NCBI GenBank assembly: GCA_963971225.1
Contig: OZ020267.1
Coordinates: 111,060,163 to 111,124,162, forward strand
Length of the DNA stretch: 64,000 nucleotides
Direction of reading: 5' to 3'
Source: Melieria omissa
Lineage: Eukaryota; Arthropoda; Insecta; Diptera; Ulidiidae
Both the position numbers and the translations under genes were made by a program. Numbering within the stretch: position 1 is the stretch's first letter; each line of letters starts with the position of its first letter. Shown here piece by piece: positions 8,482-61,524 of this stretch. The notes under the pieces were generated by a model. The model did not search any database and was not told where the DNA came from. It saw nothing but the letters and a program-made list of their open reading frames with translations.

Positions 8482-8495
8482 GCCCAAAAGTATGC
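8482..8495 (+). repeat. 14-bp element copy (GCCCAAAAGTATGC)
   Basis: One change from GCCTAAAAGTATGC, with the favoured GCG flank. It is the first copy from the left; none was seen in bases 1-8480. Confidence 0.6.
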
Positions 8496-10599
8496 TGCCA
8501 AAATATAAAGGAAGCAGTGATACATGCCGCAAACTGATTACAAACATGTTAAACTAACGCCAGCGAGTGACGTGCACCAAAAATGCCACAACAACAAACA
8601 CCAAAGCAACAACAGCACCAGCCACTTGCCGCAGCGCAGTAAGTGGCAAAAAATATGCCACAGCTGGGTATTTCCTCTGTATTAGGTAACAGGGAGGCAG
8701 CAATGTAAGTTTTATGCTTGCAGCAACCCCAGAGCAAGCAATGTGCAACAGCAAAAAAAAATGCAGCAGCGCTTGTTAGCTGTCTTCGTGTAGATTTTGC
8801 TTCTCTCCATTTGCATTTTCTTCAGTTGAATTTAGATTTTTCTTTCGATTTTTTTTTAGTTGCGCCCAAAAATGCCTTTCAATGCAGCTGGTAGCCCTCC
8901 TCGTCTAAGAGTGACTAAGAAATTGACGCGCCTAACTGTATGCCAGGCATTGGCAGCGCCACTCCACACGAGTTTCTATGCACATTGTGAAATGTCATGC
9001 TGCAATAATTGTTGCATACTTTCAGGGCGTGCGCCCGTTTGCCTCATTAAGAGGCTGCCAACGCGTTGCAACTAGCAACATGTGCTTGCACTTTTGTGCC
9101 GCATAAATAAGTTTGTGCGGAAAATGAGTCGCGGCAACGAGGGTAACTAAAGGCAACTTTCTCTCTGTGTGTGTATGGGGTGCACATTGACAAAGGGCTG
9201 TGCTTGCATGGAGACAGTGGCAAAATGAGAGCATAGCAAAATGCCCAAGTAACCACATAATGAAATTTTCATTTGCGTACAGCAATGCTGTCGCCTCGTT
9301 CGACGTTCTTGTTTCTGTCCCTCTTTCAACTGTAGTCTTGCATTAAAAAATGAAGAAAAAAATTGCAATTAAAAAATAAAAATGAAACCGACAACTCCCT
9401 CGCAGCATGTGGGGAAAAGTTCAACGTTTTGACGACACGCTGCTGGGATGTACGAGTAGAGTTGAACTTTTTTAGTTTCGACGCTTTCATGAGACTGTGT
9501 GCTCGTCTTTTGTGCTTCCCTACACTTTTCTATACAACATTTATGTGTGAGTGTGTTGGTGCGTGTCTGTGTATATTTTGTGGCCTTAAGTGGTTTTTGG
9601 AAATTAGTCGTCGGCGTTGTTGTCGTCGTTATGGTGTGGTTTTTTGTTGGTAGATGAAAGTTTTGATTAATTAATTTTTGATGTAGGAAATAAAGTGACA
9701 ATCTGGCGCAGCTACGTTTTCTGAGTGGCAAATAGAAAGAGACTGGTAAGTGGAAGCTGATAAGTTGGAATGAAATAACTTTTCAAACTTAAGTCCAGAC
9801 AATTCGAATACTTTTTTTGATTAAGAGTACCAGAACGCATTTAGCACGACATTTTACTACCAATTTTGATTATGTTCGAAATTAACACTTAAACACATTT
9901 TCAGTTTTGGCTTAATTTTGGCGTTCAAGTTAATTTCTGAGCTTTGATGTATTCAGAGACATATAGTAGAATTTTATGACGAATATTTTTTTGGTACATT
10001 TTGTCCTTGAAAAGTCCTGTTTTACAGGACATTTTTGGCTTTTTAGAAAAAAGGGTCAAATTGACCCATACAAATAAGAGTTACAGGGTTAAAATGCTCC
10101 ACAAAAATGTTCCTTGTAGTGTTTTACACCAAATTGCTGAACACATCATATACCTAAAATGTGATGTTCCATGGTTTTCGTATGCCGATTCACCATTAGA
10201 ATGCGCTAAAAGGGGACAACTTTGACCCCCCTAAAAATAAATTCAGACGTAAACTTTCAAAACGCCAATACCCGTATATCTTTTTTTGGTCCCTTGGTCC
10301 CCTCTACCAGAATCCGTTGTCAAACCCTTGTTATTTTTTTTGTGTTGTGCAGTGTAATCAATTTTTTCGAGTCTATCTAAACTCACGTTTAAACTCATCT
10401 AGCAACACCAAACTTTTCCATTTCAAAATTAGACTCAATAATGAAAACTTTTCATATTGCTTGCAGAAAATGTGTAAAATCAAAAATTTTCATATTTAAA
10501 TTACTTAAAAAGTTTCTATGAAAATTCAAAAATGTTCAAGTTGAAATTACTTACAAAGTTTCTAGCTGAATGCCGCAAATTTCAATAAATTTCAGCCCA

Positions 10600-10870
10600 C
10601 ATTACAGTTCATCACGCGACACACTCCGTTGCCTCGGACACAAAATTTTCCACCGAAATTAACCAAATTAAGCGGTGTCACCACACAAATTCAATTTGTC
10701 ACGCTTGATTAATCAGAAATTCGTTTTCCGTTTCAATCGCGCCACGCTACAGCGCGAATAATCACACGCGCCGCTGTCGCCATTGCCACAGCCGAAGCCG
10801 ATGCCACAGCCGAAATCGAAGCCGCGCAGTGGGCCCGCGCGCATCTGGTCAGCGGCGCGTGTAGTTTTCA
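10600..10870. other. GC-rich island of unknown function
   Basis: About 270 bp of markedly higher GC than its surroundings, with many CpG, GCGCGC and GCCGAAGCC-type units and homeodomain-like AATTAA/TTAATTA sites on both sides. It could be a cis-regulatory element, or a short coding exon cannot be excluded: one frame is open through the GCC-rich part, but it has no recognisable domain. Confidence 0.3.
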
Positions 10871-11636
10871 TTTTTATGCCGCCTGCCAGAAATTCAATAA
10901 TATTTTAATGAGGTAATTAATTTTATATCATTCGCTTCATCGTTGGGCCGCACGACTTTTTCTTCGTCCTTATTATGTACGAGTAGCTGGTAGCCTGAAC
11001 CCCGCTTGTTGCCAAAGTTTTCACATTTTTCAAAAGAAATATGAATGACGTTTATTGTGTAAACGAAAGCGAAATATTTGCTTGGCAATATTTCAGCAGC
11101 TTATTGTGTGCGTTAACGATGAACATTTGTTGCGCGCGCGCGTGCGCCGTTAAGTAGGCAACGCTATTTCGCTTTGACGGGCCTCGAGTGTTACTTGAGT
11201 TGAGTTGAGCAGACACATGCACATGGAGCTTTGCTCGCCTGCGTGTGTGAAGATTGCTTATTGTGTGCGCCAGTTTGTGGTGCCTACTATCAGGCGCTGT
11301 ATATCGCTTCGCACGCTTTCTTCAAGCACACAAATGTGAGCGCCAAGCAGTGACAAGTTGAAAGTGCCAGCCACTTGTGCGAGTGCGAGGAGAATGTCTG
11401 AGTAGAATTTCTTTAATTACGTTGCGGCACGCCAACAACAAAGCATCGCACACAGACACACAGGTTGGTCAATGGAATGTAACAGGCTGGCGGTTTGTTG
11501 TCGCATCGAACCGAGTGGGACAGTTGGAGGAAAGAAAGAAAAATGAAGTATCGATAGAGTAGTGTGTTATAGATAAAAAGTTACGTGGTCGTTTTTTGTC
11601 ATTCAATGCTAATATTCTGTCTCATCTATATACATA

Positions 11637-11857: not shown

Positions 11858-11984
11858 TATATAAAAAAATTAACATTCTGTGTGTAGCCAGTATTCGCGA
11901 AAACGGTTCATTCTTTCGACAAAATTTTTTTTCGTGTGTGATAGTAGATGTCATTCGTTGGTTTATAGCGATATTACAGGTTTG

Positions 11985-13650: not shown

Positions 13651-15656
13651 TCGTGGTACACTTTTGTAATAAAAAAGTGTCAAAGGATTTTTCTATTAAC
13701 TTCAAACGTATGCAACTACTTAGAACCCCACTAACTGCAGCATAAAATTCTTTGATGTCTCTTATGCGCTTCGCTCTTTAAACAAAACTGTAACTGAAAA
13801 GGTTGAGTTGCTGCAAGTGCACGCTTTAATTTTTGCCTCGTGCTGACAAAGCACAAAATTGCGTCATGTAACATACCACATTTTTTAATTACCCACAAAC
13901 TACTGCAGCTGAATTAAAAAATTACTCATGGCTTTGTGCTCACAAGGAAAGCGCAAGAAACTACAAAGCGACTAATGCTGGAAAAGGCGAGAAAGTGACA
14001 GAGGTGAGGTGTGCACAAAACCCTACAATGTGTGCACGAAACTTCATAGATGTACAACTTTTTATTCAACTTCAATAAGAAAAAAGCACCATAAGGAAAT
14101 TGAAAATGAAAATGAAAAAAGCAGCAGCACTTTAATCAATAAAAAGCACCAAAACAAAGCTTCTTCCAAACTTCCACATTAAAATTTCATTGCATACTTT
14201 TACGCGTTTGTGCCACTTGCCGCCGTTCTCGATTACACATTGCTACATTTATGGCCTAACAACTCTTTTTCGTTGCATATTTTTGTTGTAACATTTGTTT
14301 GCTGTTGTTGCCGTTTATGCGCATGTTGTGCCATTTTACCACTATGGTTGTTCTTGCTGTTGTTGTTATTGTGTTATGTTGGTTTCGCCGCTCAAATTAA
14401 CTTCCTCCCTTCCTGTGGCTAGAACGCATTGTTGTTATTGTAAAATGTTTTTTTTTGGCATAATTTCATTACGAGCATATAAATCAGCCGCTGCGCCTTA
14501 AAGTATGCTACTAAAAATTATAATTTGTTTTCTGTTCGTCTGCTTTTGTATACTTTTTTATTGCCATCTGGTCTCACTACGCGTTGCGTTCTAACGCTCG
14601 CGAAGGCGGAAAAAGGAAGCGGTGGGTACAAGAGGCGTGTGGGTTGAAAAAGTAGGCAGAGCGCGAAACATGCGAACGCGCAAAACAGCAACAGTAAAAC
14701 AACAACAACTTCTAGCCGCTACTTTTAGGCGTAATTACAAATGTGTTTGTGCGCGGTTGGCTGTGGCTCAGCGAAAGCGAAATAAAAAAGGCTTGTCCGG
14801 ACGGAGTTCACTGCCTTCTCCCTCTCAACACCGCCCTCGCTCCTTTTACAATCACATTCGGCCGCCTTATTGAGGCTACCGGAGCACAGCTGAGCGTGCT
14901 GTTACTTACTTGTGGCTCAACCATTTCGACGCCAATGTGCGTGTGTTGTTGTGCTATTGTAGTGTAGCAATAATTGTTGGCTACAGCTTTCGCTTCATAT
15001 GCAATATTTCATTTTTATAGCACATTGCACGCTTTTAGGCGCAAACGCACGTAAGCATTTGCGTTTTAATATTTCTCCTCGCCATAAAAACAGAAACAAA
15101 AACAAAGAACTACACCAATAACATTGTTCGAAGTTTGTTTATTGTAAACTTTTCCAAAGGGGAATAGCAAAATATTATGCAAAAACAACAACCAAAGCTA
15201 AATAAAAACATTAGCCGACACAACAACAATAACAACAAATAGAGTTGCAATGTGTGCTTAAATTTTTGTTATTAAGGAAATTTGAATGTGATTGCCAGCG
15301 CAATTGAATATTTGTGCACATTGAATACACACAAAACGCAACTGCAGCACCCGCTGTGCGTTATTTTTAATTGCCCCTAAAATTAGTATTAAATTATTTA
15401 ATTATATTGAAGTGGTTTTTTGTTTTTGTTTGGTTCAGATATTTTTGCACACAACGTGACATTTCATTGTGCAATCAGTGTGTTGTGTTTGTGTTTTGAT
15501 TTGATTTCTTTTCCAACTACGTTTTCTTTGTGAAATAAAACCACCAGCATTGCGGTATAAAGTGGTGAAAGGCGCCTAAAATCATGCTAACAGTAGTAAA
15601 TGTTTGCATTTAATTGGTCAGTGTATTAAATTAGTTACTGGCAAATCAACCACTGA
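13651..15656. other. Non-coding stretch with TTG/CAA microsatellites
   Basis: No gene supported. TGTTGTTGCC-type runs lie at 14284-14400, and two 14-bp element copies at 14495-14508 (GCCTTAAAGTATGC) and 15574-15587 (GCCTAAAATCATGC). Confidence 0.5.
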
Positions 15657-16140
15657 ACCTTTTACTTAAAGAGTGCATACATTTAGGCTTAAAGGAAAAT
15701 TAAGGAAACCAAATACTATACTTTTTACTTAAAAATGCATACATTTAGGCTTAAAGGAAAATTAAGGAAACCAAATACTATACATTTTACTTAAAGAGTG
15801 CATACATTTAGGCTTAAAAGAAAATTAAGGAAACCAAATACTATACTTTTTACTTAAAGAATGCATACATTTAGGCTTAAAGGGAAATTAAGGAAACCAA
15901 ATACTGTACTTTTTACTTAAATAATGCATACATTTAGGCTTAAAGGAAATTTTATGAAACCGAATGCTATATTTTTTACTTATAGAATGCATACATTTAG
16001 GCTTAAAGGGAATTTTAGGAAACCAAATACTATACTTTCTCTTTAAAGAATGCATACATTTAGGCTCAAATGAAAATTAAGGAAACCAAATACTATACTT
16101 TTTACTTAAAGAATGCATACATTTAGGCTTAAAGATGAAT
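15657..16140 (+). repeat. Tandem array of eight ~63-bp units built on the 14-bp element
   Basis: Eight units, each containing GCATACATTTAGGC exactly, at 15675, 15737, 15800, 15863, 15926, 15989, 16052 and 16115 (period 62-63 bp). The rest of each unit reads roughly TTTTTACTTAAAGAAT before it and TTAAAGGAAAATTAAGGAAA with CCAAATACTATAC after it. The units differ by scattered substitutions in the flanks while the 14 bases do not vary. Confidence 0.95.
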
Positions 16141-19100
16141 TTAATATTTTCCTGTTGTTATTAGATATTTGCTGATGTGTGCAAAAGAAGTAGAAAACGT
16201 AAAACGAAGGTTGCTAATGCGCTCAAATGTGTGTTTCACGCTCCAAAGCTCACATTACGTTGCTGCTCTTTTCTTTACCGATTTACCTTACAAGGTCGCC
16301 TAAGCCTTGTCACAAGCGCACTCATACACACACACACACTCATACAAATGCGAGTATATATGCTAAAAGTTGTATACATTCTGTACATTACGCAGCTTAC
16401 GGCATCTTGTGTGAGTTCAACTTGTTTATAGTTTGTCGTAAAACTTGCAGCAAACTGGCTGAAAGTGCTGAAAAATATGCCAAAGAAAAGAACAAAAATC
16501 CAGAGAAACGTAAGCTGCGCGCGTAATCAGTTCTTCTATTTCACTGCACCAAGTTGAGCGGATAAGTGCACTGAGCTGAGCATGAATGACAGCTGATGTT
16601 TGCTGCATACTTTTGTGCGCTGCACTTGGCTGCTTTATGTCATAAAATAACAAGCAGAAAAAACATAAAATTTAAACTTGAACTTAAAGGTTCTTGTGCT
16701 GTGTTTGGGTGTGTGAAGTTTTTACAAAACTTTGCGCATTTCATTTGCAAATATTTGTTATACAAAACATCAGGCAATAGTCTACTTTGAGGATATTTGA
16801 AAGAAATATTTTAATGCGCACAGGTCTTCAAAGTTTATGTGTAATTGTGTGTGTGTGTGTAGAGCGGCAGTTTGCCAAAGTGTGCGTAACAATGAAATTT
16901 ATTATCACTTTAACAAAAGTGAAAGAAAAAAATTTAAAAAAAGTAAAGTAAAAAAGTAAAAAAACGTTGAGAACGAAAAACACAAATTTGCATATATTTA
17001 TGACAAGCAAAAGTAGCAGCCAAACCCTAAAAGTATGCCAACATTTTGTAGTCGAACAGCATTGAAACACGCAATCGTCCACTCTGGGGCAGACACACGA
17101 CACGCCGCTCAGCACTCGACAGCGCACACGTGTGCCAATGTCCCAACGCATTAGTCGCCACAACGACACACGCACACACACACACACTCACACTGACACA
17201 GGCGCTGTTCACATGTTCCCATTTGCTTGGCCATCGAACGGGCGTGTAGCCCAGTGCGACCATATCTCCGGAGAGTATTAGTCAGCGACAAATGTGTCCA
17301 AAATGTAGCAAACAAAATTGACAACTTCAAGGCAGCAAAGTGCCATCAACTCGCACCGCTGTGGGCCCATTGCTCAGCGCTTAAATTTTCCGCAGACATT
17401 TTTCTGACATGTTGTCTGGCGCTGTGTCTGTGTGTGGCTTCGACTGGCTGTGTGTGCGTGTATGTATGTTTGCTTGTCGTCTGTTTGTCGTTCATATTAT
17501 TTATGCATTTACCAACACAAGCGTAAGTATACACACACATTAAAAAAAATAGTAGTTGGAAATGTGCTGGCAGCAGCTGAGAGAGGCGGCAACAACGCGC
17601 GTGTGGTTGGCAATTCTACTTGCACCACAAGTCGCTTCTTGCTCCTCTGCCATATTTGGTGATATATTTTCACACAAACCCTAAAAATATGCAACACAAA
17701 ATGAAAATCGTTGAAATGAAAAGTTTTATATGCGCACAATTGAAAAGTTGCTGACGTTGTTGGCTGGCAGAGACACACCAAAACTTAAGCGTATGTCGAA
17801 GTTTTCAAATGTAAAAAAGTCCTGCATTTTCTTTCCCCTCCCCTAACGGCACATTGCCTTTGTTGCTCCTCGCTGCTTTGCTGCCATTCAGCAGCCATTA
17901 TTGTTGGCGTTGTTCATAGTGCCGCCACACATTAGCACCCGCGCGCGCTCTCTCTCTGATTTGTCTCGTTGTTTGCCTTTTGTTTAGCATTTTTGTGTTT
18001 TTTCGCGCGCGCCTGAAAATATGCTGCTGCACTTTGCCGCACATTGTGCGGGCGCCGCAAGTGCAAGTTGTTGTCCTTTACAGTTTTCACAGTTCGTATT
18101 TTTTCATTGCCCCTTCTGTCCTCTGCATAAAGATTTCTTCAAGGACTAAAGCATATTTAAAATGAAAACAAATAATTTAAAAAGACAAATTTATTATTTA
18201 ACAACACAAAAAAACAAATGCGTAGATGAAGAATTTTTGCTCGTTTGCGCCTTAATTTTTTGTGATATTTTTTGAAAATTTTTTTGTTCGCAGTTTGTTA
18301 TTTTTTAATATTTAATGATGTGGAAATTTTTAAGCAACTGCGCTGTGTTGGGCCCCTCGCTCCATTTGAGTTTGGTTGTTGTTGCTGCTGAGTTAGTTTT
18401 ACTTGTTGTTGTTGTCTTTGTTGTTGTTATGATATATTGCAATGTATTCAATATGCTCAACATACTATGTGTGGCTGTGTTTGTGTGCAAAGTGTCAGTG
18501 CTTGATAACTTAAAGTGTATGCAGCAGTGCATACTTTTGGGCAATTCATCTTTGGCATAGTTTGAACTTTTAAACACTTTTCGAGTGCAATGATTGGGTT
18601 TTGTTGAATCTTTTTAAAGTTAAAATTGATGACTTTGATTCTTTGGGCAAAGATTTTATTTTAAAGTTGACTGGGTTAAATATTTAAGCGTGATTTTAGG
18701 CGTTCAACTAAGAAATCGTGTTTCAAATCTTAAATAATATTTTTAAACTATTTATTTAAACCTATAAAACCCATTTATTCTCTTTCACGATTCTCTGTTA
18801 AGTAAATCAGTCTAAGAATATGCTTTCGAAAATTAGCGTTTTATTTGAAAAGGATTTGTAACTGAGATTGCAGACATAGTGGGGGATTTTGAAATTTTTT
18901 GTCCACTAAAATCGGTCTTGTTGGTACACATATTCTTCCAATTCATATTCTCTATTTGGTCCATAGAATGAATTCTTATAGACTAATTAAAAATAGCGAA
19001 CAATTTAAGCTTTTTTGATATAAACTTTCAAAACCTCTTACGCATCTCTGAGAATCGTTTTTAAGTACAAAAGCAAAAGAGTTGGGTGCATACAAACTCA

Positions 19101-21650: not shown

Positions 21651-22720
21651 GGTTTGTAAAGCATGATCATTATTTAAATTGCTGTGATTTTAAAGGAATT
21701 TAAATATTCATGCTTTTGCCTAAAAGCAGGCAATGTTTGGTTTTGAAATAATTTGACAAATTACTTATCAAAAATTCATTAATGTGGCAAACTTAGTTAA
21801 ACATATTTGAGAATGAAATCATTATGTCACCAATACCGCCTAAATGTATGCTACGTTTTCTTGACATGCATATTTAAGCTTTTTTACTTGACTAACAAAT
21901 GTTTCGTCTCTGTTGATTTTGTAAAGCATGAAATTCTTAAAAGGTGTAAACAATATATCACTAAGCATGCCCCTAAATGTATGCAATAATTTCGTAATTA
22001 TTCGTTTGGTTAAATTTCAAATTTATTAAGAGAAAAATTTAGTTGAGCATAGTTTTGTGCGCAGTACAACAATAACAAACAATACAATAATAACTAAAAT
22101 CTCCTAAAAATATGCTATGCAATAGTATACTTATTCTATTTATTCTTTATTGAGCCAATATATCCTTCGCTTGGAATGTGAAGCCAAATATGTTTCTGTT
22201 TAAATTCAAAGAACAAAAATCTTCATACTTTAACCTAAAAGTAGGCCAAGTTTTTCTTGCTACAATATAGAATATTTCAATTAAAACTTACTAAATTTTA
22301 TAAGAAATTAGCTAATATTACAAATTCAATAAAAACTTTGCTGGAATGAAAAAATGTCTTAAATGCCTCCTAAATCTATGCAACATAAAAGCGTATATAT
22401 GTTTTTCACTTTTAGTAGACAAAATATTTGTTTGTGGTTTGGTTTATAGTGTGTTGAATAAATATTTTAATTTCTATGGTATTTAAGAAATTAAAATTGT
22501 ATCTGGTTGCCTAGAGGTATGCAATATTTTGTTGATAAAATATTTGGATTGAATGGCCTTACCAATTGTAGGGATTTTCTAAAAATATTTTTTTTTTAGT
22601 TTTTTATAAATTTTTTTTTACAATTGTGACATAAACGATGCTCAAAAGTATGCAACACAATAATGAATTCGAGTTATTTATCGTGGGCACAAATCGGCTT
22701 TAGTTTTTCCTCAAACCTTC
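21650..22720 (+). repeat. Strongly diverged tandem array, ~131-bp period, with conserved 14-bp core
   Basis: Eight copies of the 14-bp element, all in the same orientation, lie at 21718, 21838, 21972, 22103, 22234, 22369, 22509 and 22640 (steps 120, 134, 131, 131, 135, 140, 131). Between them only weak similarity remains, such as GTTTGGTT and TTTTGTAAAGCATGA recurring. The even spacing implies an old tandem repeat in which everything but the core has decayed. Confidence 0.75.
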
Positions 22721-24630
22721 TTTAAAATAGTAAAGCGCCTAAATTTATTCTTACTTAAATAAAAAGTATTCGCATTCATTTTCCCAAATGAATGCGAATT
22801 CAATTATTTGCAAAGTGTACAAGAAAAATTAGCTTTAAGTCTTTAAACATTTTCGTTGCACTGCTGCTACCTGTCAATGACAAACAGAAAACTTTGCTGC
22901 CAGCGCACCTGGCATCTTAGAAAATATTTACATTGCAACTTAGCCGCAGCCGGCTTTTGCCAGCATGGCAACTCATCCGCCAAATGTTGGCTTTGCCGTT
23001 TCTGTCAATTGAAACGTGACGCACGACGCAAACATGTCGTGGCGTGTTGCGTGTCGTCGGGCCAATGTCGTGTCAGCAGAAGCGCGACGATGTGAAACCT
23101 GCACCAAACCAGAACAGCCGAGTCCAGACCGCAGCCAACAGAAGCAGACTGAAGTAAACATTTTTGCGTGCTTTAACTTTGCCGTAAAAATTAGTAGAGT
23201 CTAAAGAAAATTCTATATACAAATCAATGTACATGAAAAAAATACAAAAAGTAAATAAAGACTCAGACGCAGCAACGTAAAAATTATATCGCAAGTTATG
23301 CTAATTGTTTCTTGCCGCTGCTGTGGCTGTTGTTTTGTGTTGCTCGCAGACTTTACATGCAATGAACAAAAGTTTGCACGTTACAACCAGACGACGTTTG
23401 ATTCTTTTGTGGCTTTTATTGCATGTTTGCTTTGCTTTATTTTTCATGTTTCTATTTTGAAGAAATAAGAAATATGAAGAAAATATGCCTAAAATTATGC
23501 AAAGATTTTTGATGCCACAATTTCGTATAAAATTAAACTCTTCATGGCATTTTGTTGTGTTTAATAGATTCCAAAAAAGGAATTTAATAAAACATTTTGC
23601 CGCTTGCATGTCATTTCACAACGCTCGCAGCGCGCTCTCTGTCTGCTTTTGGGTGCGGCTTGTCGCGACCGACGTAATGAACCAATTGCAAGCTAATTAA
23701 ATTTGGCTTTTAGTTGCATTAACACCTTGTCATGTTTTCATACTCATATTCTGTATGTGTGTATGTGTGTACGTCAGTGTTTATTTTGTATGTACAACTT
23801 TTGCCAGACATGTCATTATGTCAAAAGCCAAATTGCATTTTCAGCCAACTGCAAACAACTTTGGTTTGTCGGTTTGTTGCTCTTATGACTTTTAGCGGTT
23901 ACTGTTGCATACTTTTTTGCGTCCAATAAAATACATTGTGGCGCTAAAAATAATTTGCATGTTGTGCGGTTTTGCATGGACTGACTGGCTGCTGGCAACA
24001 GGCGTCAGTGTGTTATTTGACAGCGTTTGACATTTAATTTTGACACCTGCAGTCAAATGATTTTTATTTTTTTCTCCCTATTTTACGTGTTGGTTAGAGT
24101 GTTTGTTTCATAATGATAATGGAGTTGCGCCGAAAAGTGAGCGAAAATTTAATTCAATGTGAATTTATGTAGAATTTCGATTCAGTTGATGTGTTTATAT
24201 GAAAGTGAGGTTCAATTTACCGATTCAATATCGACTTTTTAGGAAAATTCTTACTAAAAAACCATGACTGATGTTCTAAAGGGGCAATGTCTGATAGATA
24301 TTTACACGAAAAACCTGTAACTGCGCTCTAACGATTTCTACAGAGGCTAAATACATAAAATAAGAGTTCTAGAAAAGTCTTCTTCTGCTTTTAAACACTT
24401 GTCCTGCAGTCTTAAGGAGAAAAAGAGCTCGTCTGGGCTACTTCCTGTTCTAAAATCTAGAGGATCTTGTTGCTGGGACACTAACCAGTTTACTCAGACT
24501 TTCCAGAAGCTAAAATTCGTCATCACCAAACTGATCTAAGTTTGAACTTCAGTGGTATCATAATAAATCTCTATGGCCCAGGTGAGCTCCCTTTGAAGCA
24601 GCCACTTTTATCTTTTTACATACCTACTGT
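22721..24630. other. Non-coding stretch
   Basis: No gene supported. 14-bp element copies at 23487-23500 (GCCTAAAATTATGC, +) and 23907-23920 (GCATACTTTTTTGC, -). The cysteine-rich open frame at 22856-23095 has no recognisable zinc-binding spacing. Confidence 0.5.
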
Positions 24631-24830: not shown

Positions 24831-24839
24831 AATAGATAT

Positions 24840-25260
24840 TGTAACGATGAGGCACTCTGTTGCTGTGCTATGCATGAATGCTTTTATGGGCATACTTTTA
24901 GGCACGCACTTTAGAGTACAGCAAACTTGCTATAATTCCGCTATGGCGAGGATGGTTCGCGAAGGTGATGGGCTGAGGTGATGGGCTGTGCTAGAACGAT
25001 CGAGATAGAGAGTATAACTGAAATGTGCAAGAAACATCGGCGCGATAGGAAAACCAGTATAAAAGCAGCAGCGTGCAGCGCAGAGGGTCGAGTCTTAGTT
25101 GAATAAGCAAATTAGTAACAAGTGTAGGTACAAGCAAAGTATAAATCTTGTTGATAAAGTGATTGTTGGTTTTTGACTGCGTTTTGCGCTGAATAATTGA
25201 AGTGGTTTTATTTTTCAAACACAATCCAGATACGAACTTAGAGAGGTCATTTTCGTAACA
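24840..25260 (+). mobile_element. Solo LTR, copy 1 (complete)
   Basis: 421 bp from TGTAACGATG to TTTCGTAACA, flanked by ATAT on both sides (24836-24839 and 25261-25264), which fits a 4-bp gypsy-type target duplication. It holds a TATA-like box TATAAAAG (25058-25065) and, about 50 bp from its start, an exact 14-bp element GCATACTTTTAGGC (24890-24903). No internal retrotransposon sequence adjoins it, so it is a solo LTR left by recombination. Three related copies lie nearby. Confidence 0.85.
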
Positions 25261-25264
25261 ATAT

Positions 25265-44459: not shown

Positions 44460-44860
44460 ATAGTTTAAGGCGTCAGTACACAATGTTTACTTTAAACGAT
44501 GAAAAACATGAACACAAAATTAATAATTGAGAGTTTTCACTGTGTTTGCATTAAATGGTTTAAGTAAAAGTGAATGTTTGACTGACTTGTAGTCTAGTTT
44601 AAGGCGCCAAAGGCAGTTTTTTTTATTTTTTACAGGTGTGGAAATATGTTATGAAAAAATAATTGCTTTTTTTTATAAAGCGGGTGGAAAACATTTGGAT
44701 AAAATATTTAATTAAATTATTCATGGCAAAATGAATGTGTACGTAACACATAACACAGTCTTAGGCGCCAGGGCAGTTTTTTTATCTTGTTTACAGGTGA
44801 TAAAGAAACATTAAGAAAATAATTGAAGATGTCCATTTTTTATCATTTAACTAGTATGGG
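44460..44860 (+). repeat. Diverged ~180-bp repeat with TTAAGGCGCCA / TTAGGCGCCA words
   Basis: Blocks AGTTTAAGGCGTCAG (near 44462), AGTTTAAGGCGCCAAAGGCAG (near 44595) and GTCTTAGGCGCCAGGGCAG (near 44759), each of the latter two followed by TTTTTT and TTACAGGTG. These look like decayed halves of the 14-bp element in a small old tandem repeat. Confidence 0.5.
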
Positions 44861-45660: not shown

Positions 45661-45859
45661 CACTCACGATTGCAATTATATTCAAAGTAGGGAAGTTAGT
45701 GGGGTTTGGGCAATACATCGTATGGGAGACGCTGAGCGTCTCCCATACGATCGGATTTGTGACGTTGTCAACTTTTGGGTTTATGCAAAGCAAAAATCAA
45801 AATGTATTGCCCAAACCCCACTAACTTCCCTACTTTGAATATAATTGCAATCGTGAGTG
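45661..45859. mobile_element. TTAA-flanked palindromic MITE (piggyBac-like) with nested hairpin
   Basis: 199 bp with perfect 58-bp inverted ends (45661-45718 and 45802-45859), beginning CACTCACGATTGCAATTATA. TTAA on both sides (45657-45660, 45860-45863) is the piggyBac-type target. At 45717-45751 it holds a second perfect 17-bp palindrome (ATCGTATGGGAGACGCT, a single G, then its complement). No coding inside. Perfect arms mean the insertion is young or recently homogenised. Confidence 0.85.
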
Positions 45860-49235: not shown

Positions 49236-49393
49236 TTTTTGGTTTTTTTCTTTTACTTAATTCTAATCTTATTTTTTTATAACAGGCCTTAGCTTTAAAG
49301 TATTTATAAAACTAAAAAAGATTCTATATAACAATTTTTAAATGTTTGAAATAATTTTCTTTTAATTTTTTGAAATAATTTTTTTTACATTAA

Positions 49394-49480: not shown

Positions 49481-51179
49481 ATCAAACATTCCTTTTCTTC
49501 AGTTTTCTATTTGCAACCAAACCAATTTTTCCAATTTTTAAGGCAATTTAAATAAAATGTTGCATACCTTAAGGCGTTTTCGATGCAAATGAAATAATAG
49601 CATGGAAGCAGCAACTTTTGCTTACTGACAAACAAATTTTAATTTAAATAAATTTAATTTACACTCTGTTACCAACCTAACCCACGTTCCCACTCAGCCT
49701 TGGCCACAGATTCTACACAAACACGCCGCTACCATTCAGTCGTTGCACTTGTGTAAGACGTATTAGATATTTTCATAGGAAAATTGCATAATTTTGCAAT
49801 TTCTCTTTTCGAAATCATTGCTGATTGTTTTCCAACTACGGAAATACACATCCACGCTGTGCCGCCTTAAATTATGCTACATAAAAATAAAACTACAAAA
49901 CCAAACCAAGTCTACATAGCACGAACACGAAACGACGCACCGATAGGGAAAACTTAAATACTCGGCAAACATAAACATAAACAAAATGCAGTAAAAGTAG
50001 GCAACGGTGGTAGGTCGTAAAATGCAAAATAACAACAAACAATAAAAACAAAAACAGCGCAATAGTTGGGGAAATGAGTAGAGAAGTAGCAACGGAAATA
50101 CAAGGCATACTCAGGCATTTCCGCTACAGGCCGTCGGCCATGTAAAGTGCTAGAAAATACGGCAAGGAATTGACGTTGAGTGGGCGCGAGATGTGGTGTG
50201 TTGAAGGGACCGTCACAGCAGCAGTCAAGACTGCTGAGCGGGGTTGAGTTGTCTGAATGCAAGCGGCTACCAAGTTAAGTAGAATTTGCAAGTGTAGTTG
50301 TTGGGGCACTGAGAATTTTTGCAAAATTAAATTAAGTCAGCTAACAGGCTGCCAGTCAACCAAGCAGTTAGTTGGGCAGCTTGTCTGTGTAGTTGTAGTA
50401 AGTAGGCGCTGGATTTGTTGTTATTGTAATGATTGTATTATTGTTGCTTTACGAATAATGGTTGTTGTTGTTGTTGTTGTCGTTAGTTATTAATGTTAAA
50501 ATAGCAGAGGGAAGGAAATGAGAAAGTTTCTTCACGTCTGACTGGCCTCACTGCAGCCTCTAATCGCATAGTTCGTATTGGCCGCTTGTTCCTGCCAACT
50601 GCTGCTGCTGCTGCACTTTCAAGCAGCAATTGCTTCTCGCTCACTTGATACGCTAATGCGTGTCTTCTACCTTTGGTTCATGGTGCAATTTGTTCGAAAC
50701 TTCAGAAACTGCTGCAGCTTGTTGCTACTTTCTCTCTACTTTGTTTGTTTTTTCTTCATGCATTTGCATTTTTTCTGTATATATTTGTAAATTATTAAAA
50801 ATTAAAATTGCAGGAAGGCAAAATATAACAACGAGACTCAAGCAGCAACAGAAGGCAGAGCTGTATGAAATTAAAATATTTTTTGTAATATTTGTGCGCT
50901 TGAGTTATTTACAAACAATTCCAGCAGAGCGTAAAATGAAGGTAAATATGTTAGAATAGAGAAGGAAAAAATGAAAAAAAAGAAAAACAGAAAATTCAAA
51001 TCACAAAATAAAAAGTGAAGAATGCTTGATGAAATCAATGGCAAATAGAAATAGGAAATATGTGGGGAAACAAAATAGCTAAGTTAGCGTAGATAGAATG
51101 ATTCAATTTGGGTAAAATATGCTTGTTTCCCTCGTGAAACCCTCATTGCTAAACTGAAACTGGCAATTTTGAGAAAATT
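49481..51179. other. Non-coding stretch
   Basis: No gene supported. 14-bp element copies at 49562 (-, GCATACCTTAAGGC) and 49864 (+, GCCTTAAATTATGC). A TTG run at 50461-50480. Confidence 0.5.
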
Positions 51180-51979: not shown

Positions 51980-54436
51980 ACAGTCACTCTCACATTTATT
52001 AAAAGTCCAATCGCAGCTAAAATTACTTGAATATGCGCCTAAATATAACTTAAGCTGACTTTAAATCGTTTCACGCCTAATGTTATGCTACATACATATG
52101 TGAAAAATATGAACCTCATTGAAAGTTTTAAAATTCTTTGCTATAAAGTCGCTCAAACCTCAATATTCATGGCCATCACATGCACCGCTTTCGTTTATGT
52201 TCACATTTTTACAACATTTTTCGCGCTCCTAAAATCACACTAAAATTTGCTTCATAGAAAAGTCGCTTTTAAAGCAACACTGAGTTATTAGAAGAACCAA
52301 GAAAACATCACGCTGTTTCCTACTTTCTGTATTTCCTACACCGTTTCAGGCTTTATGCGCTTTCAATGCTTTTTTTTTACAATTTTACCGCATAACCACA
52401 CCACACACACATATGCGCAAATGTCAGTGTGCGTGTGTGTGTGTTTGTAATATTTCTTGCGCCTTTTTGTCTTTCAGTAAATTACGAGGCGCATGTGGCC
52501 TGGCGGCCATGGCGCGTCATCGCCATCATCATCATCAGCAACAGCAACGGCAACGGCAGCGCCGCGTCTGCAGCACAATTTTTCGCACGCCCTGTGCGCA
52601 CGGCCCCACTGTCTGCTGGCAGGCTTGGCAGGTTGGCAGTTCGGCACGTCAGCACTTTACATTTTTACAATTTCGCTCTAAACAAGATTTATGGTTCACT
52701 AGCGTTGCCATTGCGCGCGAATCATGACCGTAATGGGGCGTGTGGCAAGCATGGCCGTTACCATTGCTTAACCAACTGCAAGGCCCAAGTTGTTCCACAC
52801 ATTAGTGCACTTCTCAAAACAACGTTGAACTGATGCAATATTGGCATTGCTGCAACACTTGCAACATTCGCGGGCAGCGCCCCAACTAGCAAAAGCGGCC
52901 TCAACTTGTGCAGAAGCGGCACGTTTCCGTCATGCACTAAGCCCCTCACTGCTGCTTAGCGTTGGTTGTATGAGTGTTGATGTTGTTGCCCACTGCCAGT
53001 TTTATTTCTCGCTGTGCTCTACGTTACTTTGCGCCTACAAATATGCAATAAAAGTTCAACATTACAATTGAGTACATTTCGCAAAAAACCGCAGTACATG
53101 CAGTTAACAGTTGCATGATAGCCACCGGCAACGCAGCGAGCAGTGAAAAAACCTGCCGCAACAACAACAACAACACCATCAAGAACTGAAAAGTTATTTG
53201 CACGTTCGTACATACTCGCAGACGACACAGTTGACGGCAAACGGCCGCACATGTGCAGCAATCGTAAATTTTTCAAACGCTTCGCTAATATACGAAGCAC
53301 AACACAACCACACACACACACAAGTGAACATTTCCTCTGTCGCTCTCTCTCTCTCTCTCCCTCTTTGTCAGCCTGCTAGCCTCAGCGAACTCACACACAC
53401 TTGAGCACTTTTCAGCGCCCTGTTCCCTCATGGCGCCGCACATGTAAACAATCCGGCCTCTACTTCCTACAATAAACATTCCTCTTCGACTGGGCCTCCT
53501 CCTTTACCTCGCCTCGTTTTCCTATCATAAATATTCGAATGGCAATCGCTCTGCCATTTCTGTTGCGCGCCTTCAATCCTTTGGCGCCCGGCCGTTGCTG
53601 GTTTGCTTTTCTGTCTTGTTGAGTTTTTGATTCGCTTGCCAGACAGTCATTTCCGTTTTAGGCCTTCATGTAATTACCACTTGTTTCCCGCTAGACGTTG
53701 TAGCATTCCCACTTCATCTCTCTCTTTCTCCCTCTCTCGTTTTCTTTCTTCTGAAAAAAAATAAATGTTTTTTCGCGTTCTGAAAATTTTGCAAAATTTT
53801 TCTCAACTCGTTGCCTTTGTCACTTTGCAGCCGTTTGCCAGCTTTTGTGGCAATTATCTGACTTCTATTGTTTTTGTTGTTGTTGCCATTGACGTGTTCA
53901 AGTGTGTAGACGTGCCAACAACAACTGACTTGACTTCGAAACGTAGTGCATAAAGTGTTGCATAACTTCAGGCATTTCTAACGAGCTGATGACTTCTTAA
54001 ATGCTCAATTCGCGTCGTGGCTCTCGTCAAATTCGTGCACCTTTGTTGTTGCTGTTTTCTTTGTTTTATTGTTTCATTTGTGTCTGATTTTAATTGCTTA
54101 ACGAATTGTTGCCATGACTGACGTTGTCGTGGCACGTCAAGCTGCACTTTAAGCGAGACTTTTTCGACTTTCAGCAAGTGTGTTGTCAGTGTTGAGTTGA
54201 CTCTGACACACACATATCCGCCATAAGGGAGTTGTGTGATTTTTAGCATTTAAAGGGAGGTTTTTGTTTTTTTGCAAAGTAAGAATGGGCAGAGGGAAGC
54301 CACAAATCTCGACTAAGCACTTAAAAGGACAATGCATTAATTGTCAACTTCTCCAAGAGTTTTCAGTCGTCCGCCACTGTTCGGGTCTAATTAGAGCCTA
54401 GTTTTAGAGTTTTAATCTGGTTTTGAGGCAGTACGA
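51980..54436. other. Non-coding stretch
   Basis: No gene supported. 14-bp element copies at 52075 (+, GCCTAATGTTATGC), 53033 (+, GCCTACAAATATGC) and 53960 (-, GCATAACTTCAGGC). A histidine/glutamine-rich frame at 52493-52681 comes from CATCATCATCAGCAACAG-type simple sequence. Confidence 0.5.
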
Positions 54437-54925: not shown

Positions 54926-57870
54926 CTGGTTTTAGTTTATTCTCTTTGGTATAATTTCAGTAAATTATCTTCCTGTCAAACGGCAAATATTTGTCTTTAA
55001 AATATTTTCCCGCATCTCCTGCGCCCAACTACACATTCATTCAAGTAAATATCATCGTAGATGAGTGTTCGCATGAAAGCAACTACAACACACAGCACAC
55101 ATTTAATGCTCTTTGCATAACTTCGTAACCATTTAATCGCCCACTATTGCACAACTCTGTTTTAACTCTATTTTAGCGATCTTTTAAGTAAATTCATAAA
55201 AGTCTGTTCAATGTGCGCTGCTTGTCGCTGCTAAACTTCTTGTTATGCCACGCAAATAAGCGCTCAAGTTTCCTCATTAAAATTATTTAACATTGAAAAC
55301 TTTGGCGGTAGCAATGCCAGGCAACAACAATAGCAACGGCAATTGTCATGCGCTCGCAGCACGCAGTCGCAATCAATCCGCCAGCGCGCATATTGCCATC
55401 CTACAGGAGGAAACTTTTCAATTGCACCAACTTATGCGACACGACTCGACGTAGCACCCATATTTGCTGGCAATAATTTCTGTGTCTCGCCATCAGTCAC
55501 GGCACGGCGTCGCGTCGGTTGTCGGCTCGATGCACAGTGAATGTGGCTGTCTAAGTGCAGCATTGTGCGTCACTGTGTTTGTGTCTGTTTTATGAGCATG
55601 CAATTTATTTGCACAAAATGACAGGATAATGTGATAGCGCGTCGTGTATTGCATTGCCAGTGTCTGTTTGGCTGTCTGTCTGTCTGCCTGGTTGCTATGT
55701 TGTTGTATTGCCTGAAGTTTGTGTGTGTGTGTGCGTGTGTGCTCAACTGCGCATCGTCAAGCTGGCTTCTACATTTTACATGCATGCCGCCAACTTGCGA
55801 CAGCTTTGCCTAACTCACACAAGCACAAACTCACATACAACTCACACACACACACAGTTGCACACTCATGCGTTGCGAGGTGCCGCTGTGAAGGCGCACA
55901 TTGCGGTAGAACGGCTTTTTCTAAGCCAATCCTACTCCAACTCCAGTGCGCTGCAATCATTTCAATGATACTCGTCGAGTTTATTTGCAATGCCATAAAT
56001 CCTGCATGCACACAACAACAACGACACACGCATACATTTGCACATATGTTATTGTCTGTGCGTTCGTCTGTCTAGCCGTCTGTCATTGCGCCATGCAGCG
56101 CATTTGTGCGTTTCGCTGACATTTCAGCGCACAATACGAATTCGAGGCATACTTTTGGGCACTGCAGTTGCCGAAAAAATAATCACAACGCTCTGTTGGC
56201 CTAATGCAGCAGCGCTCTGCAAAACAATGGCCCAACTACAACAACTGCAATCATATGCAAGCAAGCAACAGCAACAACAACTGTCAGCTGTACACCATAT
56301 TCGAAGCGTTTGCTGGCCCAATTTGTCGTTCAAAATGTGCATTGTTTGTTTTATTAATGCTACACAAGCGCAATTGTATTCGTAACCGGATCTTGTTGGC
56401 CATTGTTGGCGTTTAAAGCATATTTTATTAATAAATTCGGGATTTTTCGGTGCTTTGGTGCTACTAATTTTTGTCAGTCGCTGAAACAATTTGCATATTA
56501 AATGCTTTTTCGGTTATTATTTGTAAAGAGGTGACGAAATTGGGGCTTCATTGAGTGCAATATCAATACAGTTATATAAGTCGGTGCTGCTGTGGTATAC
56601 TTTTAGGCTGTGCTGTGGTTTATTTTTTAACTGTAGAGCAATTATATTTGAATGTTTGCCATTAGAGAAAGTTTCTATGAACAAATAAGTAAATCTGTAA
56701 GTAAATCTAAGAATGTTCAGTTGAACTTAGGTTACTAAAAAAATTATCGAAATGAATTGTTTAATTATGGTCTCTCTTCATTCCTAAAGTATGCACTCTA
56801 GATGCTTTTGTATTTTTGTATACTAAAACACACACGATACATGAAAATATATATTTTAAAACTTGTTTTCCTAAAAATGGTTATTTCAAATTAATTATTT
56901 AATGACATGACTTTTAATTTATAATTTAAAAAAAAATTCTAATTTACTCTGCCGTCAAGTCAAACGCTCACAGATTAGTATTTTCCATTAATAGTAAATA
57001 ATAAACAGCAAAACTGTTGGCTTTTGTTGTTTTATTTCATTACATCGAAAGCATAGCAAATTGACGCTCACAGGCAAATCATTTAAATTAGCCAATTATG
57101 CGCTTTTGACTCGTTGGCCACAATGCATCGTTAAATCAACAAAACTTGTTTGCATCAACACACACACACACACAAACAACCACATGCAATGTTTTTTGTT
57201 GTTCCAAAAACCACCCAAAAAAGGCCAATAATTGGTTTTATTTAATTTTGTAATTAAATTTTGTTGACATTACAAATGCATTAGGTGTGTATTTATTTAT
57301 TTAATTTCGATATTTCCATTAATTTGCGTTAAAAAATATAATTTAGTGCATTTATTTGCGGCGCGTTTATTTGTATGGGTTTGACTGTGTGTTTTTTGTC
57401 GTTATTGGAATTTTTCCCTACATTTTTCTATACTAAAAATTTTTTTATTCTATTAAACGTTTCTTTGAATATTGTAAACTTAAAATTTGTTGATTTCAAA
57501 TGTTTGATTTTGCATTTAAAATGCAATTAATTTGCATATTGTAAACAAAAATATCTCTTAAGTTATGATATAAAATTATTAAATATTTTCTAGATTTAAT
57601 GTCGCTAAAGTCAGCAGCCAAACCAATTCAGTACGAAGATGGTCTGAAAAGTTTTTATATCGACGAAAATACAAGTCATATGTTCTTCAAATTAGCTTTA
57701 TTTTTCCATCTAGTCGCCTTAAAAGACTTTGAGAGACTTTGCTCATCTATTTAACTAGTCATAGCAAAGCGTTGGAAATGTTCATTAGAACACAATTTTA
57801 GGTCTAAAGTAAGCAAACGTGCCACACGCTTAGGCTTTGTTTTACCTACATTTTTATTCAGGCATTCAGG
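54926..57870. other. Non-coding stretch
   Basis: No gene supported. 14-bp element copies at 56147 (-, GCATACTTTTGGGC), 56595 (-, GTATACTTTTAGGC) and 56783 (+, CCTAAAGTATGC). A GATGGTCTGAAAAG word at about 57640 recalls some mariner ends but no partner end was found. Confidence 0.5.
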
Positions 57871-58500: not shown

Positions 58501-61500
58501 TTGCTGGCGCTTTTTGTGTGCAACCTGATTCTGAGAAAACCAAAGTCAACGAAATCCAACTGCTTAGAAGCTATACTGTTCTATGCACGCAGCTTTCCTT
58601 AGCATAGTTTTAGGCGCATGCATGCCAAAGCAACTGACTGCCTAAATGTGGGTGTTTTGTGTCTTCAACTGGCAGCTGCTGTCGCACGATTTCTGCTCCA
58701 TTTCCTTTAGCCATCGTTTCGTGTGTTGTATGGCGTTTTGGGGCTTTCATTTTGTTGTTGCTTAGAAGTGTGATTATTGGGTGGGCTGCATTGAAAGCAC
58801 GTTTGCATTGCATGCGATCAGGCGGCACAGCTAAGAATTTCGATTTCGCTTTGAGGTCGCTTTGACTGTCAGCACCTTTGACATGCTGCGCTATATTTAT
58901 TTGGGCTTTGGTCATATTGCTGCCAATGATTCGTATTCAGAGTGTTGTATTGTAGAGTGTTGTGCTGGTTTGGAGTCTTTAATTGACTTGAAGGGTTTTA
59001 GTCAAGTCTTTTAAATTGTAAATTGAGTTTAAGCAAAATTTAATTAAGATAATTTCTTAGTTCTATAAACGGAAATATAGTTTCTAAATGTTATTTATGT
59101 GGGATGATGATTTAAATATACTTTTTTTTTATTTTTGAGATTTTTAAATTTTTTATTTTATAAAAAACCCTACTTATGGAATTAATATTTCCACCCAATG
59201 CTTTTTCTATGCCAATCGAATTGTTTTTGTTCCTATGCTTTTAAATGTATGAGCTCAAAAAAAGCATAAATACCATAAACCTTAACAAATAAAATGAAAA
59301 TATTATGAAAATGTTTTTATGCTATTTACGTCCGTAAAAGTGTATTTGCTGTGTGAATTAATTTTGATTTATTGTCAGAAATTTCAATATAACAAACAAC
59401 ACGCTACAATGCGCATAATAGTGAAAGAGTAGCGTATTCAATTAAATTGTGCGCTTCAACACGCGCACACTTAGCCGCAAGCAAACAAAAGGGCGCCAGC
59501 ACCAAAAAAAAAAACCAAACAAATATAATAGAAAAATTAAATAGAAAAATATACTAAGCCGCAGGATAAAAATAAAAACAGAAACAAACAAACTAATGTG
59601 CACGCAACTTGCGGCAAATGCGACCAACTATTTGCAGAAGATTTTTGTATATTTTTACAACTATGATTTTCGTTGTTGTTGTTTTTGTTGTTGTTGTTGT
59701 TATTCGCATACAACTATTGTGCCGCACTACGATGCGTATACGTGATTTTGATTTCTCGTGCAATTTTCCATGCCATTACGAAAAAATCCACTTAATGCCA
59801 ATGCCAATGCCAACGATTGCCACAACAACAACAACAAAATAGTAAAATAGGCCAACTGCGGCTTATACGTTGGCCAACAAAGCAAAGTGGCTGCTAACAA
59901 AAAAAAAACACAAAAATTGGTTGGCACTCAGGTTCGATTTAGTTGAATTGCGTTGCTCAGTTGAGTTGAGTTGCAATAAAGAAAGAAAATAATAAAATGA
60001 ATACAAAGGCCACACACACATACATACAACAATGAAATCACAAAATAGTAAAATTTCGACATAAACCAATAAACACGTAAATAAGAACAACAATAACAAC
60101 AACAACAATCGAAATATAATAATAAAACAGCACAATAAATAAGAAAATAGTAAATGAGCAAAGCTGAAACTAATAAAAGTCACCCTCAGCTCTCTTTTCG
60201 AATATTGTATTGCAGCCTTTTGTATTTGTGTTGGTGTTCGTAGGGTTATTGTTCTTATTGTTGTTGTTGTTGTTGTTGTTGTTGCGTCCAATACTACCCA
60301 CTTGAAGCAACGTTTTGTGCATTAAATCTGATTGTGTATGCGTTGCGGTGCCGCACAAAAATTCAGTCGAAGCATACGAATGCGTAGAAAAGGCAAACGA
60401 ACACAACATAAAGCAGAGCTGCCAACAAGCACATCTGCATATTTGTGCGCCATAAAACGCACACACTAACATGCACTAAACTAAACACACACACACACGC
60501 ACACAAACAAAAAAGCAGCATGTCAACTATGAAGGCCACAAAGAAATCTCAGGCACATACACACACAAACAATTTTGCTATATGAGAGAACACACAAATA
60601 TGTATGTGTATGTCATGCTTTGTTGTTGCTTCTTTCGTTGAAAAATATAAAATAAAAAGAAATAAAAAAAAAATGCACTAAAAAAACTATTCACAAAAAA
60701 CTGGCACGGTTTTGCCAGCCCAAATCGGGTTTGTGTGTGTGTGTGTGTGTGTTGTGCGGTTGTCGGCGTCATGTGGCGCCTACGATAACCCAAATTCAAT
60801 TTGATCAAATTTTCAACATTGAAAATCAACGCACACACACAACGCAGTCAAATTGAATTGAAGCCTTGTTGCGGCCTTTGTTGAAGCCTTTTGCCATCGA
60901 TTCGAACATTAGGCCCGCACTAAAAATCAGCTCGTCTTGAAGGCCGTTTGCCGTTTAGCGCCAGCTCAGACCCTTTCGACAAGACTTATAACCAATGACA
61001 CATACACACTCACACATACACTCACACTCGATCCCATACATCTTTCACAGCACACATGTCTGTTTGTAAATATTTTTGAAATGGGTTAGTTTCGTTGTGC
61101 TGTCGAAATTCATTTAGACAAAAGCCAATCTGAGCCAGACTCTCATTCTTCACACGCACCCACACATACACAAGCACACTCTCACCCATTTGTTCTTATT
61201 TTTTGCTGCCTATTTCAATTTTCCATTTTTGGTATTTTGTTAACGTTACCCTTTTTCGTCTTCAATTTGGTTGCCTTTTGTTTGATTGTTCGCTTTTTTC
61301 ATGGTTTTTGTTTGTTTTATGTTTCGATAGATTTTCAGCTCTTTTGCCAAATTGAGGTATCACATTGCAGCAAATATATGCGAAAATTCACAACTACAAA
61401 CACATTTATCTGTTTACCGTTAGATATGCGTGCACACACACACACTTGCATGTTTATAAGGCTGCAGCTTAATTCAGTTTCGATTTTCTTTCACTTGTCA

Positions 61501-61524
61501 GCTGGCATACTTTTGGGCGCGTCA
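58501..61524. other. Non-coding stretch with CA/TG and CAA microsatellites
   Basis: No gene supported. 14-bp element copies at 58602 (-, GCATAGTTTTAGGC) and 61504 (-, GCATACTTTTGGGC). A TG run at 60731-60752 and TTG runs at 59670-59700 and 60258-60284. Confidence 0.5.

Follow-up and report, generated by a model that had tools for sequence, protein, structure and literature searches.

A dense domain of Su(Hw)-type motifs, likely within an intron of Lar, in the fly Melieria omissa

What is a short sequence that recurs dozens of times within a single stretch of fly DNA, and why does it recur there? The stretch in question (hereafter, the window) is 64 kb of the 490-Mb assembly of Melieria omissa (C1:111060163-111124162), in which an earlier note listed 49 dispersed copies of a 14-bp element; we analyzed it within a 264-kb block that includes 100 kb on each side. 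Judged by its sequence, the element is already known as the motif recognized by Su(Hw), an insulator protein, and its arrangement here is new and extreme. The window is probably a slice of a domain of Su(Hw) motifs that spans at least 264 kb and likely lies in an intron of Lar; Su(Hw) is predicted to occupy this domain throughout.

Identity of the repeated element

Read as its reverse complement, GTTGCATACTTTTAGGCGC, the extended form of the element given in the earlier note fits the published 20-bp Su(Hw) site. A literature query with TGCATACTTTT led to a paper that maps Su(Hw) binding sites in flies (Adryan et al. 2007, PMC2374998), and the consensus reported there, TGT(T/A)GC(A/C)TACTTTT(G/A/C)GG(C/G)..., is the reverse complement of that extended form. 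The element had been presented as undescribed, which is wrong because this consensus was already published in 2007 (PMC2374998). The accompanying suggestion of a protein-binding site of the insulator or architectural kind fared better, agreeing at the sequence level with both the motif match and the presence of a Su(Hw) ortholog in the genome.

A position weight matrix (PWM) was derived from 15 of the 20 rows in Table 1 of PMC2374998, all of them D. melanogaster sites (three starred neighbours, one row without a hit and one duplicate were dropped), and scores of at least 9 were counted as matches by default; leave-one-out scores of the 15 known sites range from 8.0 to 19.4. The window contains 66, 63 and 37 matches at scores of at least 9, 10 and 12, respectively, compared with means of 1.56, 0.77 and 0.22 in shuffled sequence (maximum 5 in 100 shuffles at the lowest cut-off) and of 1.1, 0.49 and 0.1 for column-permuted matrices (maximum 8 in 200 at the same cut-off). 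The base profile of 48 of the 49 listed sites, with the four-mismatch copy at 56783 left out, correlates with the Drosophila profile at r = 0.907, against 0.574 for the best of 20000 column permutations, and the agreement extends to columns outside the 14-mer (1-3 and 18-19). Information spans about 20 positions and then ends, which bears out the extended form. The Su(Hw) site is described as consisting of three modules, AT-rich upstream, central and GC-rich downstream (PMC5825117); in the sites of the window and the 264-kb block, the central module and the GC-rich side are clear, and the upstream A/T preference is slight. In Drosophila, a good motif match predicts Su(Hw) occupancy well, with 63% of the hits at P below e^-15 enriched more than 1.4-fold (PMC2374998).

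All 49 listed copies were found at positions accurate within a few bases (5 match exactly, and 20, 17, 6 and 1 carry one, two, three and four mismatches, respectively), so the list is real, if incomplete: sites at 8930, 14192, 15027, 44458 and 11143, for example, are absent from it. With up to 0, 1, 2 and 3 mismatches, the window holds 5, 35, 64 and 94 copies of the 14-mer, compared with means of 0, 0.04, 0.83 and 8.0 and maxima of 0, 1, 3 and 16 in 100 dinucleotide shuffles. Copies with at most two mismatches are thus far above chance, which a single copy with three or four is not. As had been claimed, both orientations are used (21 and 17 of the 38 isolated sites, that is, those outside the masked tandem (TRF) and other repeats), most flanks differ (mean identity 0.27, maximum 0.41 for these 38 sites), and the tandem arrays in the window are real.

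The genome encodes a Su(Hw) protein with conserved DNA-contact fingers. A query with Drosophila Su(Hw), an approximate sequence that scans as 12 fingers, the number reported for the protein (PMC5825117), identified one colinear locus at C1:40683218-40686051 (best E 6e-75), where pieces between query residues 83 and 891 are 47-79% identical and residues 538-591 are unmatched. The runner-up locus reaches 42% identity over residues 410-546. Recognition helices taken from the genomic sequence are either unchanged or carry one or two substitutions (FTRSYHLKRH/FTRAYHLKRH, FYRLDNLRSH/FFRLDNLRAH, FSALVALKKH/FPSLVALKKH; further, FAVKEVLNRH/FAVKEVLNRH and FIQATQLRTH/FIQATQLRGH), and those of fingers 6 to 9 are nearly unchanged. 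The matched pieces include the C-terminal region, which is required for insulation and repression (PMC6441048).

Extent of the domain and origin of its sites

The dense region continues for at least 100 kb beyond the window on each side, so that the previously given span, 8482..61517, was too short. The 100 kb before the window contain 103 matches and the 100 kb after it 111, for a total of 280 in 264 kb, 172 of which score at least 12; column-permuted matrices yield a mean of 4.6 and a maximum of 16 (100 permutations). Window positions 1-8478 are without a match, but the apparent edge at 8.4 kb was rejected as a domain limit because the 10 kb preceding the window hold 13 sites. No matches were found in eight 5-kb stretches placed at round coordinates elsewhere (L029-L036; five on C1 and one each on C2, C3 and C4), of which L032 is low-complexity and includes 1019 N, nor in four 2.5-kb stretches on either side of the block (L040-L043), two of them preceding it by 260 and 110 kb and two following it at 76 and 176 kb. 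These four place the probable limits of the domain between 110.85 and 110.96 Mb on one side and between 111.22 and 111.30 Mb on the other, although patchiness could mislead.

Genome-wide, the exact 14-mer occurs 6,613 times and the reversed pattern once; the 45 exact copies in the 264-kb block amount to 12.6 times the genome mean, and the genome count agrees with the sequence of stretch L037 in 10 of 10 cases. For the 19-mer with up to three mismatches, at least 5,312 places were counted, whereas its reversed pattern gave 86; one exact copy in examined DNA was missed, which makes the count a lower bound, and no enrichment was derived from it. Two spots that were picked for their clusters contain 28 sites in 9 kb (L037) and 18 sites in 9.5 kb (L038), and therefore the window domain is not the sole such place. 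In the first of these, 26 motifs lie within 3.9 kb (L037:2383-6255; C1:5471883-5475755), many about 75 bp apart, in a row that is broken near 3.4-5.2 kb by a coding-like, low-complexity frame.

The 280 sites are spaced at a median of 378 bp, about one site per kb, and 13 runs of 4-14 sites are present (at least four matches with neighbours at most 250 bp apart), eight in a single orientation, four with one odd site and one mixed; the middle half of the spacings within runs is 90-140 bp. Flank identity inside runs ranges from 0.30 to 0.66, and several runs are visibly tandem, some not. Different runs, including a fourteenth (window 41.3-42.8 kb) that was added by hand for this comparison, share matches of only 18-63 bp. 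An additional observation concerns stretch L025, where 14 mixed-strand motifs occur at approximately 7478-8579, whereas the surrounding runs are mostly one-stranded.

Flanks are repeated within the 264 kb, the range of this comparison, for 109 of the 280 sites and unrepeated for 171, which are split evenly between the strands (86 versus 85) and carry no information beyond the 20-bp site. In the window, 38 of the 66 sites lie outside masked repeats and 39 pass the 264-kb flank criterion. A single transposon family as the source of the copies is rejected by these counts, together with the low flank identity. Both refutations proposed in the earlier note thus fail, the counts being far from those in shuffled sequence as well. 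The earlier idea of a relic seeded by repeats is correct in part, copies being present in arrays and in two or more dispersed repeats.

One of these dispersed repeats, which we denote E, is about 410 bp long and contains the Su(Hw) core, and a 33-base piece of it is found at 4,153 genomic places within three mismatches. Three of the five exact 14-mers in the window (24890, 27523 and 35047) and 10 of the 45 in the block reside in E, but only 1 of the 280 matrix matches does, because E agrees badly with the Su(Hw) matrix in the outer columns; the dense domain is mostly not made of E. The window copy with the flanking direct repeat starts near TGTTACG and finishes near CGTTACA, and we take its ends to resemble those of a solo long terminal repeat. 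Among the first eight exact 14-mer loci genome-wide, three are in E and three, as judged by eye, in a second repeat (L001, L002 and L004). A long open frame at L001:2051-2917 and L036:1267-2025 resembles, by eye, a mariner-type transposase.

Within the local repeats, the core is better kept than the spacers. Of all 14-column windows of the 63-bp array, only that of the motif is invariant (identity 1.00, against 0.88 for the runner-up). The spacers of the row at 21.7-22.7 kb have a mean column identity of 0.31, and the eight motifs are evenly spaced (coefficient of variation 0.044), none of 200000 random placements being as regular; a ninth, weaker match at 22734, 97 bp further on, was excluded from this test. 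In a looser comparison across those local repeats that offered sufficient aligned columns, in which gaps in the query row count against the outside columns, core identity is 0.929 versus 0.776 outside and is higher in 29 of 30 bins. A strict form, with the motif masked during alignment finding and outside gaps ignored, gives 0.909 versus 0.867, with the core ahead in 22 of 26 bins (p = 0.006). When the mask was shifted in eight ways, identity was never significantly higher, and it was lower for two of the shifts (-50 and +50). These results support, but do not prove, that the core would be kept by selection, the evidence being clear in the looser test and modest in the strict one.

Two plus-strand exons located 55 kb downstream of the window (approximately L024:5313-5444 and 5545-5706; splice sites assigned by eye) encode the first immunoglobulin domain of the receptor tyrosine phosphatase Lar, a neural receptor gene product; the second exon agrees with Drosophila Lar (3pxj) at 53 of 56 residues. 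A long 5' intron of Lar is thus the likely location of the window. No other host exon was recognized among the best codon-score frames over the 264 kb (most frames were not searched further), and several of these frames are, by eye, retroelement RNase H pieces.

Some further candidates and features of the window deserve mention. Known structured RNA was rejected because nothing in the window reached the Rfam gathering score, and so were coding repeats, given no convincing exon by open frames and a rough codon score. Among nine window open frames compared with Pfam, only one reached the cut-off, an RNase H remnant of a retroelement (PF00075) at 31757-31921, which sits in an interval of about 5.6 kb that is free of matches scoring at least 9. 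The 19-mer was not found in scans of viral and prokaryote contigs. An array of the pentanucleotides CGATA/ATAGG occupies 30507-30745; the insulator protein BEAF-32, too, has a site with CGATA as its core. Long arrays of other pentanucleotides (TATTT, AGTCT, TTTAT) are found at 48622-49237, 54446-54855 and 62262-63186.

Table 1 Su(Hw) motifs and repeats carrying them in the window (window coordinates; PWM, matrix score)
Feature	Position	Strand	Remark
Su(Hw) motif, isolated	8479..8498	-	PWM 19.4
Su(Hw) motif, isolated	8642..8661	-	PWM 10.4
Su(Hw) motif, isolated	9011..9030	+	PWM 13.1
Su(Hw) motif, isolated	11143..11162	-	PWM 15.5
Su(Hw) motif, isolated	11279..11298	+	PWM 12.1
Su(Hw) motif, isolated	14189..14208	+	PWM 12.3
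Su(Hw) motif, isolated	14492..14511	-	PWM 16.5
Su(Hw) motif, isolated	15024..15043	+	PWM 12.0
Su(Hw) motif, isolated	15571..15590	-	PWM 11.2
Tandem array, 63-bp unit, 8 Su(Hw) motifs	15660..16134	+	TRF 63 bp x 7.6
Motifs of 63-bp array	15672, 15734, 15797, 15860, 15923, 15986, 16049, 16112	+	
Su(Hw) motif, isolated	16602..16621	+	PWM 17.4
Su(Hw) motif, isolated	17022..17041	-	PWM 14.4
Su(Hw) motif, isolated	17676..17695	-	PWM 12.5
Su(Hw) motif, isolated	18526..18545	+	PWM 13.8
Row of 8 like-oriented Su(Hw)-like motifs, diverged spacers	21715..22656	-	spacing 120-141 bp
Motifs of 21.7-kb row	21715, 21835, 21968, 22099, 22230, 22365, 22506, 22637	-	22099 and 22506 under 9
Opposite-strand motif within 21.7-kb row	22044		
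Su(Hw) motif, isolated	23484..23503	-	PWM 11.7
Su(Hw) motif, isolated	23904..23923	+	PWM 16.2
Repeat E copy, exact 14-mer at 24890	24836..25264	-	PWM 10.8, sole E site above 9
Su(Hw) motif, isolated	25321..25340	-	PWM 10.4
Su(Hw) motif, isolated	25631..25650	-	PWM 12.0
Su(Hw) motif, isolated	25901..25920	+	PWM 12.7
Su(Hw) motif, isolated	26550..26569	+	PWM 15.4
Su(Hw) motif, isolated	26931..26950	+	PWM 11.2
Su(Hw) motif, isolated	27041..27060	-	PWM 12.8
Repeat E copy, exact 14-mer at 27523	27200..27589	+	PWM under 9
Su(Hw) motif, isolated	28049..28068	+	PWM 12.0
Su(Hw) motif, isolated	28761..28780	-	PWM 15.6
Su(Hw) motif, isolated	28853..28872	+	PWM 15.9
Su(Hw) motif, isolated	29739..29758	-	PWM 10.6
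Su(Hw) motif, isolated	29818..29837	+	PWM 15.5
Repeat E copy, exact 14-mer at 35047, 35-bp direct repeat flanking	34699..35114	+	PWM under 9
Local duplication, 4 Su(Hw) motifs (35448, 35556, 35655, 35777)	35448..35843	+	
Su(Hw) motif, isolated	38008..38027	-	PWM 16.1
Su(Hw) motif, isolated	38783..38802	+	PWM 10.0
Su(Hw) motif within short local repeat	38911..38930	+	PWM 15.0
Broken repeat E copy, one-mismatch 14-mer at 39241	39212..39477	-	PWM under 9
Su(Hw) motif, isolated	40775..40794	+	PWM 13.0
Old tandem array, motif variant GCATAATTTTGGG in units	41255..42860	-	6 motifs at least 9
Su(Hw) motif, isolated	43440..43459	-	PWM 14.6
Su(Hw) motif, isolated	44455..44474	+	PWM 10.7
Su(Hw) motif within inverted repeat	45764..45783	+	PWM 10.2
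Su(Hw) motif, isolated	49559..49578	+	PWM 12.0
Su(Hw) motif, isolated	49861..49880	-	PWM 12.4
Su(Hw) motif, isolated	53030..53049	-	PWM 9.7
Su(Hw) motif, isolated	56144..56163	+	PWM 16.1
Su(Hw) motif, counted isolated but in 47-bp two-copy tandem row 56588-56634 (TRF)	56592..56611	+	PWM 13.7
Su(Hw) motif, isolated	58599..58618	+	PWM 12.5
Su(Hw) motif, isolated	61502..61521	+	PWM 13.3

Readings of the domain

In the reading we favor, successive local tandem duplications, each of a short unit unrelated to the others, would have multiplied the sites, and dispersed repeats would have spread some of them; the spacers would have decayed afterwards, with the sites held by selection for Su(Hw) binding. 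On the strength of Drosophila data on Su(Hw) occupancy, lamina and ovary, the Lar domain is predicted to be coated by many Su(Hw) molecules together with the known partners CP190 and Mod(mdg4)-67.2. The coated long intron could then fold into an insulated or lamina-tuned domain, acting as one architectural unit that would keep the distant enhancers of Lar ordered and would hold Lar expression low in the ovary, for example. Binding by Su(Hw) is a prediction here, and so are insulation, lamina tuning and repression, any of which may dominate. In Drosophila, 3,166 direct Su(Hw) peaks are reported genome-wide in the ovary (PMC11106861), and Su(Hw) sites are enriched within and near the borders of lamina-associated domains (LADs), where Su(Hw) weakens lamina contact (PMC2991331). 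We further consider, as a tentative proposal with the odds somewhat against it, that the domain may be an "insulator satellite" of about 0.3-0.4 Mb over a neural gene. Its sites would arise again and again through tandem amplification of short units without relation to one another and be retained by selection as the intervening DNA erodes, with their number rather than any single site being selected.

Several observations weigh against the favored reading. Many of the bare 14-mers genome-wide may be repeat-borne, considering the number of places at which the E piece is found relative to that of exact 14-mers, and a dispersed repeat with one copy in 264 kb would score as a unique flank. The strict conservation effect is modest, reciprocal alignments are common to several bins, and a high core identity could also stem from gene conversion or recent duplication; moreover, the motif window of the 41-43 kb array leads the next best only narrowly (0.88 versus 0.83), and the odd bin of the looser test reverses (0.571 versus 0.782 on 14 columns). 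The 5' exon of Lar was not found, so the intronic placement is one that we infer. In Drosophila, pooled contacts among direct Su(Hw) peaks are unchanged without Su(Hw) (PMC11106861), the effect of Su(Hw) on lamina contact is modest, genes in Su(Hw)-marked lamina domains are not preferentially misregulated, and su(Hw) mutants are viable, with impaired oogenesis (PMC2991331).

Among the alternatives, it is unlikely that the domain is a useless relic in which the motif was multiplied by tandem and mobile repeats and the copies are merely decaying. The 13 runs of close sites, several of them visibly tandem, and the exact core borne by E and the second repeat are what such a process would leave, but 171 of the sites have unrepeated, information-free flanks, the runs have only short matches in common, E accounts for a single match of at least 9, and the core is kept better than the spacers; furthermore, neutral duplication leaves unexplained why unrelated units center on one 20-bp site. 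Chance or base composition would yield about eight copies with up to three mismatches in the window, but shuffles, permuted matrices and the reversed pattern exclude it as a source of the excess, and we assign it a negligible probability. It is also quite improbable that the motif is read in this lineage by another zinc-finger protein with Su(Hw)-like specificity. There are many C2H2 stretches in the genome (82 matches to the Su(Hw) query, counting those of su(Hw) itself), and the preference for A at position 14 and C at position 17 exceeds that of the 15 Drosophila sites, in the case of the listed copies partly because the pattern behind them selected these bases; against this stand the fit to the Drosophila profile outside the 14-mer and the nearly unchanged helices of fingers 6 to 9.

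A variant of the favored reading, in which Su(Hw) would repress Lar, as a neural receptor gene, directly in particular tissues from a silencer platform rather than through insulation or folding, seems to us possible but doubtful. Su(Hw) does silence neural genes in the Drosophila ovary, but through promoter-bound sites (PMC6441048), whereas here the sites fill hundreds of kilobases, and the promoter was not located.

Comparison with known Su(Hw) systems

The endogenous sites of D. melanogaster resemble those described here in the 20-bp consensus, the non-coding location and the unconserved flanks (PMC2374998). They are, however, mostly single: 3 Mb contain six pairs of sites that lie within 1 kb of each other, and 2,281 sites are predicted genome-wide at P below e^-15 (PMC2374998), whereas at a comparable cut-off the window alone contains 30 sites, 15 of 29 neighbours being within 1 kb; with the short median spacing and the runs, the isolated-site pattern does not apply to this domain. 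The density is far above that reported for D. melanogaster, although the ratio is only rough because the matrices differ (15 versus 42 sites). The gypsy insulator, with 12 Su(Hw) sites in 340 bp (PMC2374998), is similar in its tight runs of like sites with AT-rich spacers between them, and groups of at least four close sites, as in gypsy, occur here in all 13 runs; the differences are that these runs share short matches only and that the sites are of the longer endogenous type, with the GGCGC side. Su(Hw)-rich LADs likewise combine several Su(Hw) sites, hard-coded by the motif, in large silent domains (van Bemmel et al. 2010, PMC2991331), whereas the present domain has about one site per kb over 264 kb. 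A comparable number of sites, with runs on unrelated units, was not found in the portion of the open-licence literature covered, which is weak evidence of absence.

In that literature, fly insulator sites have so far been studied either as the tight gypsy cluster or as endogenous sites that stand singly. One domain with hundreds of Su(Hw) motifs, many of them in runs on unrelated units, would be nature's own test of whether insulation, lamina contact or silencing depends on the number of sites, and of how architectural sites turn over. The domain also illustrates that mobile and tandem repeats can carry and multiply the motif of an architectural protein.

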